Source of the DNA: Isoptericola halotolerans
GTDB lineage: Bacteria > Actinomycetota > Actinomycetes > Actinomycetales > Cellulomonadaceae
Direction: 5' to 3'
DNA: 64,000 bases
Assembly (NCBI RefSeq): GCF_003003075.1
Contig: NZ_PVTX01000002.1
Coordinates: forward strand, 372,001 to 436,000
Both the position numbers and the translations under genes were made by a program. The first letter of the stretch is position 1. Each line of letters begins with the position of its first letter. Positions 44,455 through 57,197 of this stretch are shown here, one piece after another. The notes under the pieces are model-generated. The model ran no database searches. It saw nothing but the letters and a program-made list of their open reading frames with translations, and was not told the DNA's origin.

Positions 44455-44743
44455 GCAGGCCAGCCTTTCACGTCGGTCCTGCGGAGGATGGAGCGCTCGG
44501 CGACGTCGGTCCCGTCGCCCAGGGACGAGGCGCGAGGTAGCGCGGCGTCGGCCGAGGTAGCGCGAGGGGCGCCGAGGTAGTGCGGGACGCGCCGAGGTAG
44601 TGCGGGACGCGCCGAGGTAGTACTACCTCGGCGCGTCGTCCACTACCTCGGCGTGCGAGCTACTACCTCGCGCCGGGCTCGCTCCAGGTCAGCGCTCCAC
44701 CTGGATGGTCGCGATCGTCCTGCGCTCGCAGGCTCGCTACGGA
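44455..44743. other. Intergenic region between ino1 and an MFS gene
   Basis: 289 bases without a gene. The left part holds the MFS ribosome-binding site, 44533-44670 is a periodic palindromic array, and 44700-44743 shows nothing recognisable. The array follows the ino1 stop and so may also end ino1 transcription. Confidence 0.7.
44533..44670. repeat. 20-nt periodic palindromic array of CGAGGTAG units
   Basis: Eight copies of CGAGGTAG. Five are direct, starting at 44533, 44553, 44573, 44593 and 44613. Three are inverted (CTACCTCG), at 44623, 44643 and 44663. The spacing is exactly 20 bases within each set. The central pair forms a 32-base perfect palindrome at 44606-44637. Spacers of about 12 bases vary at the edges and repeat (TGCGGGACGCGC) near the centre. 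Confidence 0.9.
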
Positions 44744-51286: not shown

Positions 51287-51329
51287 AGGCCCCGGTCCCG
51301 CTCGCCCAGCGAGCAGGACCGGGGCCTTC
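51287..51329 (+). terminator. Intrinsic terminator after rplI
   Basis: 12-base perfect stem AGGCCCCGGTCC / GGACCGGGGCCT with an inner GCTCG/CGAGC stem, followed by TCTGC. 20 bases after the rplI stop. Confidence 0.85.
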
Positions 51330-51350
51330 TGCATGCCGCAGGGGAGCGCG

Positions 51351-51410
51351 TTCGGCAGTTCCTGCTTTGTTCGGCAGTTCCAACTGCCGAACGCGGCACG
51401 AAGTGCCGAA
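51351..51410. repeat. 19-nt periodic palindromic element, left copy
   Basis: Four 10-base units: TTCGGCAGTT at 51351 and 51370 (direct), AACTGCCGAA at 51382 and AAGTGCCGAA at 51401 (inverted). 9-base spacers give a 19-base period; the centre is CC at 51380-51381. The inner pair plus a flanking base on each side is a palindrome at 51369-51392. Lies between the rplI terminator and the AbiEi-like gene. Confidence 0.9.
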
Positions 51411-51471
51411 CGAGGGGACGAGCCTGTGGACAGCCGGCACGGGGACCGTGCCCCGGCGCCAGGCTGGGAGC

Positions 51472-52419
51472 ATGCCGACCGAGATCCTCGTCGCCCGTGA
51501 GCACCTGCCCACCGCGCTGCGCACCGCGCGCCGTGCGGGCGAGATCGAACGGATCCGGCGCGGTGCGTACCGCGTGGTGCCCGACGACGGCAGCGGCGGA
51601 CCGGACAGCTGGTCCGCCGCACGCTGGCTCCAGGTCGACCGAGCGCGTGCCCTGGGACGCCAGCTCCGGTCGGCGCACTGGTTCAGCCACCAGACGGCGG
51701 CGATGCTGCACGGTCTGCCCCTGTGGCGCCTGCCCTCGGAGACGCACGTGCTGCAGACCTATCGAGCGTCGTCGCGGGCGGCCCGGGACGTACGCCGGCA
51801 CTTCGTCGAGGGGCGCCCGGCCGATGGCTGCGAGGTGCTCGGCCTGCCGGTCACTACCCTGGAACGGACGGTGGCCGACTGCGCGACGACGCTGCCCCCG
51901 CTCGACGCCCTGGTGGTCGCCGACGCCGCCATGGCGCGGGGTCTCGACCGCGACAGGACGGCGGAGCTCGTCAGGTCGCGTGCGCGAGGCGTCCGGCGTG
52001 CGCTCCTCGTCCTCGAGCTGGCAGATCCAGGCGCCGAGAGTCCCTGGGAGTCGTGGTTGCGCTACGTGGCCCACTGGGCGGGACTGCCGCGGCCACGGAC
52101 GCAGGTGCCGGTGCGCACCGCGCTCGGCCGCTTCCGGGTGGACCTGGGCTGGGAGGACCACCGGGTGCTCGTCGAGTTCGACGGCCTCGTGAAGTACCGG
52201 ACCGGCGCGCTCGGCACGGACCACGACCCGGACCGGGCACGGATCGACGAGAAGCGGCGGTCCGATGCCATCGCGGAGGCCACCGGCATCCAGCCGCTCC
52301 ACGTGACGTCGAAGGATGCTCCGGACCCGCAGGCGGTGGCCGATCGTCTGCTGGCGCGCTTTCCTGGCGATGTGCGGCGCGCTGCGCGCAAGAATCCCTT
52401 GCTGCCCCGGCCGCGATGA
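51472..52419 (+). CDS. AbiEi-type winged helix / DUF559-like nuclease-fold protein
   Basis: 315-residue cytoplasmic protein. The N-terminus (about 8-50, LPTALRTARRAGEIERIRRGAYRV) matches the AbiEi-type winged-helix domain of type IV toxin-antitoxin antitoxins. The middle carries LPVTTLERTVADCA, typical of this family. The C-terminus (about 215-295) has FRVDLGWEDHRVLVEFDG, the D...ExDG pattern of DUF559/Vsr-like endonuclease folds. Such proteins are often multicopy orphans in actinobacteria; no AbiEii toxin is adjacent. ATG 51472 (MPTEILVAREHLPT), with GGGAG six bases upstream. Flanked on both sides by matching palindromic elements. Confidence 0.85.
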   Translation: MPTEILVAREHLPTALRTARRAGEIERIRRGAYRVVPDDGSGGPDSWSAARWLQVDRARALGRQLRSAHWFSHQTAAMLHGLPLWRLPSETHVLQTYRASSRAARDVRRHFVEGRPADGCEVLGLPVTTLERTVADCATTLPPLDALVVADAAMARGLDRDRTAELVRSRARGVRRALLVLELADPGAESPWESWLRYVAHWAGLPRPRTQVPVRTALGRFRVDLGWEDHRVLVEFDGLVKYRTGALGTDHDPDRARIDEKRRSDAIAEATGIQPLHVTSKDAPDPQAVADRLLARFPGDVRRAARKNPLLPRPR

Positions 52420-52438
52420 CGCCGGGGTCGGTGGCTCA

Positions 52439-52498
52439 TTCGGCACTTCCTGCCTCGTTCGGCAGTTCCAACTGCCGAACGAGGCAGGATGTGCCGAA
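52439..52498. repeat. 19-nt periodic palindromic element, right copy
   Basis: Four 10-base units: TTCGGCACTT (52439), TTCGGCAGTT (52458), AACTGCCGAA (52470), ATGTGCCGAA (52489). Spacers are 9 bases and the centre is CC, the same geometry as the copy at 51351-51410. A 34-base perfect-arm palindrome spans 52452-52485. Lies between the AbiEi-like gene and the MATE gene stop. Confidence 0.9.
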
Positions 52499-52510
52499 CG
52501 AGAGGGGCGC

Positions 52511-53824: not shown

Positions 53825-54131
53825 CTCACCCCACCTTTCTTTTCTCCACAGGCTGGGAACAGCGTTGCTGCAGGTCACAGCCATATCTTGAGTTGTACAC
53901 AGGAGATGTCCCCAGTTGTGCACAGGGTTGTCCACCACCGGTGCACAGGACTGGGCAGTCTTCCACAACCCTGTCCACAGATGTGTCCACAGAGTCTTTT
54001 GCGCACCGTACCGGGCGCGCCTAGCGTCGTCCCGAGTGTCAGAGGTGGACTGTAGAACAAGGTGCTGAGGACCGGTCGATTCGCCCGGGTTCGGGTCGTG
54101 GTGCCGGTGGGAGCCGGGGGAGGTGGGAGAC
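53825..54131. promoter_or_regulatory. dnaB upstream region with a DnaA-box cluster
   Basis: 307 bases without a gene. Eight DnaA-like boxes all on the plus strand between 53842 and 53991: TTCTCCACA (53842), TTGTACACA (53893), TTGTGCACA (53916), TTGTCCACC (53928), CGGTGCACA (53939), TCTTCCACA (53959), CTGTCCACA (53971), GTGTCCACA (53983). None is perfect. The dnaB ribosome-binding site GGGGGAGG is at 54116-54123. Confidence 0.7.
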
Positions 54132-57100
54132 ATGTCGATCGACGAGCTGGAGGCGAACTACTCGTCGCGCGGGAGCTTCGACCGCACCCCTCCGCAGGAC
54201 GTCGAGGCCGAGATGAGCGTGCTCGGCGGCATGCTCCTGTCGAAGGACGCGATCGCCGACGTGGTCGAGCAGATCCGCGGCGTCGACTTCTACCGCCCGG
54301 TGCACGAGGCGATCTACGACGCGATCATCGACCTGTACGGCCGCGGTGAGCCCGCCGACGCGATCACCGTGGTCGCCGAGCTGACCAAGCGGGGCGAGAT
54401 CGGGCGGATCGGCGGCGCCTCCTACATCCACGACCTCATGGCCGGCGTGCCGACGGCGGCCAACGCCGGCTACTACGCGCGCATCGTGCAGGAGCGGGCC
54501 GTCCTCCGGCGGCTCGTCGAGGCGGGGACCAAGATCGTCCAGCTCGGATACGCGACCGACGGCGGCGACGTCGACGCGGTCGTCAACAACGCCCAGGCCG
54601 AGATCTACGCGGTCACCGAGCGCAAGACGTCCGAAGACTACGCACCGCTCGCCGACATCATCGGCGGCGCGATGGACGAGATCGAGGCCGCGGGCAACCG
54701 GGGCGAGGGCATGGTCGGCGTGCCGACCGGGTTCGCCGACCTCGACCGGCTGACGAACGGGCTGCACCCTGGGCAGATGATCGTGGTCGCGGCGCGACCG
54801 GCCATGGGTAAGGCGCTCGCCCTCGACACCCCGCTGCCGACGCCGACCGGCTGGACCACGATGGGCGACGTCGCCGTCGGGGACGAGCTGATCGCCGCGG
54901 ACGGGACGCCGACGCGCGTGGTGCGCGCCACCGAGGTCATGACCGGCAGGCCCTGCTACGAGGTGGTGTTCGACGACGGCACGACGATCGTCGCGGACGC
55001 CTGGCACGAGTGGGTGACGAGCACGTCGGGGAAGCCCGCTGACGCCGCGGTGCGGACGACGGAGGACATCCTTGCGTCGATGCGTGCGGGCGTTGCGCAC
55101 TCGGTGGCGCGGCCCGGCGCCGCCTGGAAGATCGTCGACGTCGTGGCGGTCGATTCGCGGCCCGTACGCTGTGTGGAGATCGACCACCCGGAGCATCTGT
55201 ACCTTGCGTCGGCGGCGAAGATCCCGACGCACAACTCGACGCTCGCCATCGACATCGCACGGTCGGCGTCCATCAAGCACCAGAAGACGTCCGTCGTCTT
55301 CTCGCTCGAGATGAGCCGCAACGAGATTACGATGCGTCTGCTCTCCGCCGAGGCGCGCGTGCACCTGCAGAAGCTCCGCAACGGCTCGCTCGGTGACGAC
55401 GACTGGCAGAAGCTCGCCAAGGTCATGGGCAAGGTGTCCGAGGCGCCGCTGTTCATCGACGACTCGCCCAACATGTCGCTGACCGAGATCCGCGCCAAGT
55501 GCCGGCGGCTCAAGCAGAAGCACGACCTCGAGCTGGTCGTCATCGACTACCTGCAGCTGATGACGTCCGGCAAGAAGGTCGAATCACGGCAGCAGGAGGT
55601 CTCCGAGTTCTCGCGTGCTCTGAAGCTGCTGGCGAAGGAGATCGAGGTTCCTGTGATCGCGCTGTCGCAGTTGAACCGTGGTCCGGAACAGCGGCAGGAC
55701 AAGAAGCCGGCGATGTCGGATCTTCGTGAGTCGGGCTGTCTCACCGAAGACACCAAGATCCTCCGCGCCGACACCGGCGCTGAGACCACGATGGGCGAGC
55801 TCTTCGCGCTGAACGCGAAGGACGTCCCGGTCTGGGCGCTCAATGAGCGGCTGCAGTACGTGCGACGTCACCTCACGCACGTCTTCCCGACGGGAGTGAA
55901 GCAGGTCTACCGGCTGCGTCTCGCCTCCGGTAAGCAGATCGAGGCCACGGCGAACCACCCGTTCCTCACCTACGAGGGCTGGACGCCGCTCGGCGAGCTC
56001 GAGGTCGGCGCTCGCCTCGGAGTGCCGCGCCATGTGCCTGGGCCGGAGCAGAACATCGAGTGGGACGACCGCAAGGTCGTCATGCTTGCGCACCTGCTCG
56101 GAGACGGATCATTCGTCAAGCGGCAGCCCATCCGCTACGCGTCGATCGACGAGCGCAACCTCTCGGCCGTGACGGACGCGGCGGAAGCCTTTGGGATCAC
56201 AACCATCCGTGACGAGTACGCCGCCGCACGCGTGACGACGCTGCGCCTGCCGGCGCCCTACCGTCTTGCTCGAGGCCGGCGGAATCCTATCGCCGAATGG
56301 CTCGACGACATGGGTCTGTTCGGTGCGCGGAGCCACCAGAAGTTCGTTCCATCGAGCGTCTTCCACCTGCCGAAGCATCAGATCGCGCTCTTCATCAAGC
56401 ACATCTGGGCGACCGACGGCTCAGTGACGATCAACAAGAACGGTCGCAGCGGGCGGATCTACTACGCGTCGACGTCGCGCGAGCTGGTTGACGGCCTGTC
56501 TCGGCTGCTGCTCCGCTTCGGGATCTCGACGCGTGTGCGCCGGACGACACTGAAGGGCGCCTACCGGCAGGGTTACACACTGGACGTCAGCGGCGTTGAC
56601 GACCAGCGCCGCTTCCTCCAGGAGATCGGTGTGCACGGCGACCGCGGGGACATCGCAGAGAGGCTGCTAGAGATCATCCGCGAGACGCAGGCGAACACCA
56701 ATATCGACACCGTGCCGCGTCAGGTCTGGGACGACGTGCGGGACCTTCTCGTGGAGCGAGGAATGACGCATCGCCAGTTTGCTGAGGCGATCGGCACCCA
56801 GTTTTGCGGCAGCACGCTCTGGAAGCGCTCGCCGTCCCGTCAGCGGTTGGGGAAGATCGCGACCGTCCTCGAGAGTGAAGAGCTAGAGATGATGGCGGTG
56901 AACGATCTCCTGTGGGACGAGGTCGTCGAGATCGAGCCGGTCGGGGAGAAGCAGGTATTCGACGCGACGGTCCTGGATACTCATAATTTTGTCGCGAACG
57001 GCATCGCTGTCCACAACAGCATCGAGCAGGACGCCGACATGGTGATCCTGCTGCACCGCGAGGACGCCTATGAAAAGGAGTCACCGCGCGCTGGGGAGGC

Positions 57101-57197
57101 AGACCTGATTGTTGCAAAGCACCGTAACGGCCCGACCGACACGATCACCGTAGCGTTCCAGGGGCACTACTCGCGGTTCGTTGACATGCAGGTGTGA
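54132..57197 (+). CDS. dnaB: Replicative DNA helicase DnaB with two inteins
   Basis: 1021-residue precursor of the hexameric helicase that unwinds DNA at the fork. N-terminal domain 1-150 (PPQDVEAEMSVLGGML), linker, RecA-like ATPase domain. Two in-frame inteins interrupt ATPase motifs: intein A (residues 228-368) between Lys and Ser of Walker A (RPAMGK | S), and intein B (536-962) in DLRESG | SIEQDADM. Without them the mature protein is 453 residues, normal for DnaB. ATG 54132 has GGGGGAGG eight bases upstream; GTG 54123 is an alternative. Activity requires both inteins to splice because Walker A is split. Confidence 0.97.
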   Translation: MSIDELEANYSSRGSFDRTPPQDVEAEMSVLGGMLLSKDAIADVVEQIRGVDFYRPVHEAIYDAIIDLYGRGEPADAITVVAELTKRGEIGRIGGASYIHDLMAGVPTAANAGYYARIVQERAVLRRLVEAGTKIVQLGYATDGGDVDAVVNNAQAEIYAVTERKTSEDYAPLADIIGGAMDEIEAAGNRGEGMVGVPTGFADLDRLTNGLHPGQMIVVAARPAMGKALALDTPLPTPTGWTTMGDVAVGDELIAADGTPTRVVRATEVMTGRPCYEVVFDDGTTIVADAWHEWVTSTSGKPADAAVRTTEDILASMRAGVAHSVARPGAAWKIVDVVAVDSRPVRCVEIDHPEHLYLASAAKIPTHNSTLAIDIARSASIKHQKTSVVFSLEMSRNEITMRLLSAEARVHLQKLRNGSLGDDDWQKLAKVMGKVSEAPLFIDDSPNMSLTEIRAKCRRLKQKHDLELVVIDYLQLMTSGKKVESRQQEVSEFSRALKLLAKEIEVPVIALSQLNRGPEQRQDKKPAMSDLRESGCLTEDTKILRADTGAETTMGELFALNAKDVPVWALNERLQYVRRHLTHVFPTGVKQVYRLRLASGKQIEATANHPFLTYEGWTPLGELEVGARLGVPRHVPGPEQNIEWDDRKVVMLAHLLGDGSFVKRQPIRYASIDERNLSAVTDAAEAFGITTIRDEYAAARVTTLRLPAPYRLARGRRNPIAEWLDDMGLFGARSHQKFVPSSVFHLPKHQIALFIKHIWATDGSVTINKNGRSGRIYYASTSRELVDGLSRLLLRFGISTRVRRTTLKGAYRQGYTLDVSGVDDQRRFLQEIGVHGDRGDIAERLLEIIRETQANTNIDTVPRQVWDDVRDLLVERGMTHRQFAEAIGTQFCGSTLWKRSPSRQRLGKIATVLESEELEMMAVNDLLWDEVVEIEPVGEKQVFDATVLDTHNFVANGIAVHNSIEQDADMVILLHREDAYEKESPRAGEADLIVAKHRNGPTDTITVAFQGHYSRFVDMQV
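54813..55235 (+). other. Intein A in DnaB: class 3 mini-intein
   Basis: 141 residues with no homing endonuclease. First residue is Ala (ALALDTPLPTPTGWTTMGD), not Cys or Ser. Block B is GTTIVADAWHEW with His at B:10 and Trp at B:12; block F RPVRCVEIDHPEHLYL has Cys at F:4; block G ends PTHN with Thr at G:5; the +1 residue is Ser. Trp-Cys-Thr together define class 3 inteins, which start splicing from the block F cysteine (established for the Bethlehem phage DnaB intein). Confidence 0.9.
55737..57017 (+). other. Intein B in DnaB: class 1 intein with LAGLIDADG endonuclease
   Basis: 427 residues. Begins with Cys1 (CLTEDTKIL), block B has ATANHPFLT, block F VFDATVLDTHNFVANG, ends VHN before +1 Ser. 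Two LAGLIDADG-type motifs: LAHLLGDGS and IKHIWATDGS. A segment near the C-terminal splicing blocks (LLVERGMTHRQFAEAIGTQF) resembles a helix-turn-helix. Codon use is looser (more ATT, GTT, TTT) than in the flanking exteins, fitting horizontal entry. Confidence 0.92.

Follow-up and report, generated by a model that had tools for sequence, protein, structure and literature searches.

The window, a stretch of 64,000 nucleotides from Isoptericola halotolerans, carries a gene for a protein of 315 residues enclosed by two palindromic elements of 62 bases each, which we refer to as type T1 (Table 1). A sequence-only reading of this DNA had placed a gene between matching palindromic elements here, and this was borne out: the two flanking copies are 88% identical over 72 bases, with a period of 19 and a CC centre. 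The 9-base spacers that it described hold only when the unit is counted as 10 bases; between the 7-mers the gap is 12 bases. None of 100 shuffles of the window produced the composite T1 pattern and, as single-stranded DNA, the flanking elements reach hairpin z-scores of -8.5 and -14.3. The bracket holds no ORF other than the nuclease gene. On one side its neighbour is rplI and on the other a convergent gene that we take, from its ORF, to encode a putative MATE-type transporter; the downstream element lies 18 bases past the stop codon of the nuclease gene and 11 bases ahead of the stop of the convergent gene. Elsewhere in the window, the ORF of a replicative helicase (DnaB) appears to contain two inteins, of which one is inserted at the P-loop and the other, longer one lies beyond it.

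Table 1 Features of the window discussed in the text, with positions counted from the first base of the window.
Feature	Position	Strand	Remarks
Array of CGAGGTAG units, type T4	44533..44670		period 20; units at 44533-44663; dispersed T4 copy
Terminator hairpin of rplI	51287..51327		upstream of the T1 element
Upstream element, type T1	51350..51411		two direct and two inverted GTTCGGCA-type units, period 19, centre CC, hairpin; TTCGGCA at 51351 and 51370, TGCCGAA at 51385 and 51404
CTGTGGAC motif	51424..51431		between upstream element and start codon; enriched upstream of homologues
Gene for the 315-aa AbiEi plus Vsr-like nuclease protein	51472..52419	+	likely start ATG 51472; TGA 52417-52419
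AbiEi-antitoxin fold, residues 1-185	51472..52026	+	predicted winged helix and nucleotidyltransferase-like core; matches 6y8q_A, 1zel_A
Vsr / I-Bth0305I-like nuclease domain, residues 188-302	52033..52377	+	predicted fold; matches 3r3p_A, 1cw0_A
Downstream element, type T1	52438..52499		same unit layout as upstream element; TTCGGCA at 52439 and 52458, TGCCGAA at 52473 and 52492
DnaB ORF	54123..57197		1024 aa

Rfam gave no known RNA at the elements, the weak mir-5592 matches lying below the gathering score, and prediction found no sigma-70 promoter. The motif between the upstream element and the start codon (CTGTGGAC / GTCCACAG) occurs at 40 of 79 homologues vs 8 of 447 control windows. We take it to resemble a DnaA box (TTGTCCACA), in reverse at the window locus, and as such it could couple expression of the cassette gene to replication.

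The N-terminus of the protein is recognised as AbiEi by PADLOC (E 3.6e-16), and Pfam AbiEi_4 scores 22.8 bits, under its cut-off of 25 bits. NCBIfam holds no family for the protein, and a sequence-profile search of solved structures gave no meaningful match to it. The nuclease domain is recognised by fold in the window protein and, in relatives, as MTES_1575 / DUF559. The winged helix and nuclease-like fold that had been proposed from the sequence were confirmed by a high-confidence AlphaFold2 model computed with 62 relatives (pLDDT 93.8, pTM 0.90). Residues 1-185 of the model match the AbiEi antitoxin (6y8q_A, Z 12.3) and Rv2827c (1zel_A, Z 8.9), with a Foldseek E-value of 6.7e-6 to the AbiEi fold, while residues 188-302 match the catalytic domain of I-Bth0305I (3r3p_A, Z 10.7, 97/97 residues) and Vsr (1cw0_A, Z 9.9). 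Five residues, E193, D224, E235, D237 and K241, are invariant among the 62 sequences and give the nuclease motif of the family, E..D..ExD...K. According to the model, residues 1-185 are likely to form the DNA-recognition part of the protein.

The protein thus shares with the AbiE type IV toxin-antitoxin systems (AbiEi, Rv2827c) the AbiEi fold, which makes up its N-terminal two-thirds, and the paired inverted repeats to which AbiEi proteins bind are comparable in length. It differs from them in carrying a C-terminal nuclease instead of a partner toxin, and in having elements on both sides of the gene as well as dispersed. Moreover, no gene for a DUF1814 nucleotidyltransferase toxin adjoins the window locus, which is therefore not an AbiE toxin-antitoxin locus.

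Homologues were collected by a protein motif, hence blindly with regard to their flanks, and 80 homologous loci were obtained from Isoptericola, Promicromonospora, Cellulosimicrobium, Cellulomonas, Sanguibacter and relatives. The sequence-only reading had proposed to test homologues for flanks of the same kind, and such flanks were found: long palindromes with a score of at least 14 are present in 83 of 156 homologue flanks vs 24 of 857 control windows (p 2e-33). The downstream element starts at a median of 16 bases past the stop codon, and the upstream one lies about 60-250 bp ahead of the start codon. The two elements that flank the same gene match with a mean score of 53, vs 12.5 for elements of other genes; the gene's own partner element ranks first in 26 of 29 genes, and none of 10000 permutations reaches the observed value. 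The flanking pairs are direct in 16 cases and not in 4, with 9 ties. In a test that makes no use of palindromes, 43 of 76 genes exceeded the 99th percentile of mismatched pairs (0.8 expected), with 1 of 68 in a shifted pseudo-gene control, and in a phylum-wide sample of distant Actinomycetota 12 of 20 loci had matching flanks (0.2 expected). Selection or gene conversion, without any mobility, could account for the upkeep of part of this similarity between left and right. The flank tests detect no bracket at 33 of 76 loci (about 40%), which is a point against a self-spreading element, and they overlook tandem arrays and decayed elements, which are present at some of these loci. Element similarity tracks protein similarity (Mantel rho 0.38, 0 of 2000 permutations) across loci that are related and not fully independent, with few pairs above 70% identity. 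Among close orthologues of Cellulosimicrobium, the elements vary in the number of units, with no clean presence or absence.

Bracketing goes with the AbiEi-plus-nuclease architecture, as the other AbiEi_4 proteins of the genus have long hairpin flanks in 9 of 15 cases with a nuclease domain vs 0 of 9 without (p 0.004). The nuclease-bearing ones form the VEIDGxxxH clade, in one member of which (L276) the elements match on both sides. The hairpins of this clade (L249-L278, e.g. L261, L263, L264, L266 and L276) are long and of another design, and several have in common a GTGCTGA...TCCTCAAAC-like arm.

The window genome (G000; 3.85 Mb in 22 contigs) holds three paralogues of the window gene, with 55, 48 and 41% identity, and a fifth family copy (G000:C6:2866-3714) with an in-frame stop that, from its sequence, looks like a pseudogene. 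Two of the paralogues have palindromes of their own that are unlike T1, ATCGTCACTTCGGTTTCTGTCCGGCA... (T2) and GTTCGGCACGAGGTGACC... (T3). The fourth gene (C2:207850-208686) is bracketed by inward-facing 20-base tandem arrays of GCCGAGGTAGT units (T4), which elsewhere in G000 give 54 matches in 456 kb vs 5.4 expected. The array at 44.5 kb in the window, whose geometry had been likened to that of the elements around the gene, is indeed related to them, with a period of 20, and belongs to a different type, being one of the dispersed T4 copies. Facing pairs of T4 arrays are also seen around 150-270 bases without a nuclease gene (G000:C2:325983-326441 and C5:267776-268236). The large-genome genus g7 has 5-10 family copies per genome (L237-L241, in G055 and G113) and is a natural test set for the coexistence of multiple element types.

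Three of the element types (T1, T2 and T5) were searched throughout the genus, and a fourth in a distant genus against eight comparison genomes, with copy numbers that are lower bounds fixed by the mismatch limits. The T1 core is found in 13 copies in G000 and 3 in G012, where the gene is 95% identical, vs at most one copy in four other genomes of the genus and zero in the remaining twelve. T2 genes were found in G000 and G007 only, and these have 4 and 6 copies of the T2 element, respectively; G014 has one match with three mismatches. T5 has 8 copies in G001, and G003 and G006 have a single copy. The distant genome G159 has 6 copies of the element that flanks its own gene, with sharp shared ends (ATCTTCGC...GCGAAGAT), vs 0 in the eight other genomes. 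The sequence-only reading had named two observations that would tell against it, homologues lacking such flanks and elements occurring widely with no link to the gene. Both were examined, and each type proved to be multi-copy only where the matching gene type is present. Copy numbers of about 4-13 are, on the other hand, far below those of typical REPs, which is a point against self-spreading. At sites orthologous to the solo copies of G000, the element is variously present or absent in G012, G007 and G013. Also in G001, a pair of T5 elements surrounds an unrelated ORF of roughly 230 codons (G001:C1:61773-62571; L224, L225), possibly a palindrome-cargo-palindrome unit.

The solo copies are mostly intergenic, and 8 of 20 lie between convergent genes, as judged from the approximate calls of a simple gene caller. 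This location, together with the strong hairpins, is what would be expected if the elements were ordinary bidirectional transcription terminators or insulators whose matching around the gene is incidental. We consider this highly improbable: rplI already ends in a terminator of its own ahead of the element, prediction places no T-tract terminator at the elements, and each gene has flanks that match each other and differ from those of other genes, with copies that track the gene type. Such type-specific co-occurrence of element and gene contradicts the terminator or insulator reading.

Base pairing within the elements appears to be maintained. The 12 T1 copies analysed were found by their central 24 bases only, with the outer arms outside the search pattern, so paired changes in the arms were not selected for. 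In these copies, both partners have changed in 12 of 30 pairs, with a covariation score of 0.215 vs 0.115 in shuffles (0 of 500) and 0.04-0.08 in slid structures. The units are near-invariant, and the spacers are variable yet still paired. T5 behaves likewise (0.126 vs 0.057, 0 of 500). As read from these alignments, the kept pairing suggests either that the hairpin form is in use or that one arm is copied from the other.

These results bear on a regulatory model. In it, the protein would act as a repressor of the AbiEi type that controls its own gene through the upstream element as operator, the dispersed copies would make up a regulon or serve in looping, and the nuclease fold would be incidental. 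The promoters of AbiEi and Rv2827c do contain paired inverted repeats of 23 bp to which these proteins bind (PMC7319586), and the upstream element lies about 60-250 bp ahead of the start codon. Nevertheless, there is a matching element past the stop codon as well, solo copies are equally common at the 3' ends of genes, including those between convergent genes, and AbiEi proteins without a nuclease have no brackets. Furthermore, a purely double-stranded operator would have no need of the covariation seen in the T1 spacers, and the catalytic-type residues are invariant. We therefore regard this model as unlikely, although the upstream copy may double as an operator.

Comparison of related genomes gives a view of the cassette in several states. 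At the rplI-MATE site, the cassette is present in G000, G012, G013, G007, G015 and G017, G016 has a solo element, and G005 and G006 have an empty gap; G015 and G016 are incomplete assemblies, and the cassette of G016 is found elsewhere in its genome, beside other genes. At the site of the T2 gene, the flanks of G012 and G000 are 89% and 81% identical, while the proteins are 54% identical and both elements are of another type in G012; G007 has there a T2 gene (83%) with T2 elements. This comparison fits the exchange of whole palindrome-gene-palindrome units; very fast co-divergence is a formal alternative. No clean empty site with a target duplication could be read at ten solo sites aligned with G012, G013 and G007, as the gaps have diverged too far even in the nearest genomes. 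Phages yielded no homologue, and plasmids only one partial match, on a record of 11.9 Mb that is evidently a chromosome; there is thus no sign of frequent horizontal transfer. This, like the want of a readable insertion, counts against self-spreading.

Our best explanation is a self-spreading partnership of gene and palindrome, similar to REPIN-RAYT, or to a homing nuclease and its target site, and built on an unrelated protein, to which we give a probability of roughly two in three. At the level of sequence, its support is the bracketing, the left-right matching, the co-diversification of elements and proteins, the type-specific dispersal, the hairpin-preserving changes, the cassette exchange and the solo and empty sites. 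The AbiEi-like part would recognise the units of its own palindrome, which we hold to be very probable, and the Vsr-like part would nick or cut at or beside the palindrome, probably in hairpin or cruciform form. Solo palindromes, and less often whole cassettes, would thereby reach other intergenic sites, and a role of the protein in this spread is probable. Gain, exchange or loss would affect the palindrome-gene-palindrome unit as a whole; the flanking copies would be the ends of this cassette, and if they recombined, a solo palindrome would remain.

The route of spread could be hairpin transposition or homing-type copying. In the latter case, the nuclease would cut solo elements and repair would copy the gene in, with the elements as homology arms, so that solo copies would be either older targets or the scars that lost cassettes left behind. 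Among nuclease folds, the closest is that of a homing endonuclease, I-Bth0305I, the flanking pairs are mostly direct, and a solo element stands where relatives have the cassette. However, the G012 cassette of quite different element type at the same site is unlike element-to-element homing, and solo copies are far more numerous than cassettes. This homing version seems to us possible though rather doubtful, and it is a sub-version of the self-spreading partnership, not its opposite. I-Bth0305I itself, an EDxHD / Vsr-like homing endonuclease, is similar in its nuclease fold and as a lone nuclease gene that appears mobile. The present family differs in lying outside introns and inteins, in its private palindrome on both sides, in its AbiEi recognition part and in its nuclease motif.

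A further possibility is a defence or addiction function, in which the nuclease would be restrained by, or would spare, the elements of its own genome and attack DNA without them. AbiEi and Vsr/MTES_1575 domains do recur in conflict systems (PMC3710099), yet the bracket contains no partner toxin or methylase, and the exchange of cassettes and the turnover of low-copy elements resemble selfish spread. This reading appears very unlikely.

As to known systems, the self-spreading partnership shares with REPIN-RAYT a gene flanked by its own palindromes, dispersed extragenic copies tied to the gene, several type-specific pairs per genome, hairpins made of inverted pairs, and co-evolution (PMC3116915, PMC3733652). 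It differs in being actinobacterial and in its protein, an AbiEi plus Vsr-like nuclease and not an HUH/Y1 protein, as well as in its phased units of 19-22 bases or tandem arrays, its low copy number and the occurrence of the cassette at different sites. Indeed, the HUH/Y1 (RAYT) transposase PF01797 is absent from all 18 genomes of the genus, the control genomes being positive, and no GTAG or CGTC tag is found at the foot of the palindrome, where T1 copies read GTTCGGCA...TGCCGAAC. The bracketed nuclease would work like REPIN-RAYT, yet it is not a member of that group. Vsr and MTES_1575 / DUF559 restriction-like nucleases resemble it in nuclease fold and acidic residues, and we know of no link between them and dispersed palindromes. 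REP-like repeats for which no transposase is known, such as the CGTC REPs, are likewise dispersed palindromes in need of a mobiliser (PMC3733652), but these orphan repeats have no dedicated gene, whereas here each type has a matched one. The sequence-only reading knew of no described system of this kind, and we found none on palindromes with AbiEi or DUF559 among open-licence papers; a description elsewhere is possible.

To our knowledge, the only enzyme class linked to dispersed bacterial palindromes to date is that of the HUH single-strand transposases, and for several palindrome families no mobiliser is known. If an enzyme class unrelated to these also had matched palindromes, partnerships of gene and palindrome would have evolved more than once. 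We lean slightly towards a new mobile or selfish class across Actinomycetota, in which AbiEi plus Vsr-like fusions mobilise private hairpins independently of HUH-based REPIN-RAYT, and in which the VEIDGxxxH clade would be self-bracketed as well. If true, this would point to a candidate for mobilising the orphan repeats and would assign a function to many proteins whose current annotation is AbiEi antitoxin or DUF559; it would also provide dozens of natural protein-target pairs from which a recognition code could be read.

A second dispersed hairpin family, GCTGTGGGTGCACGACACGCC...GGCGTGTCGTGCACCCACAGC, is also present in G000 without an assigned gene, at G000:C2:291662-291744, C5:83851-83908 and C5:147835-147898, and beside L011.
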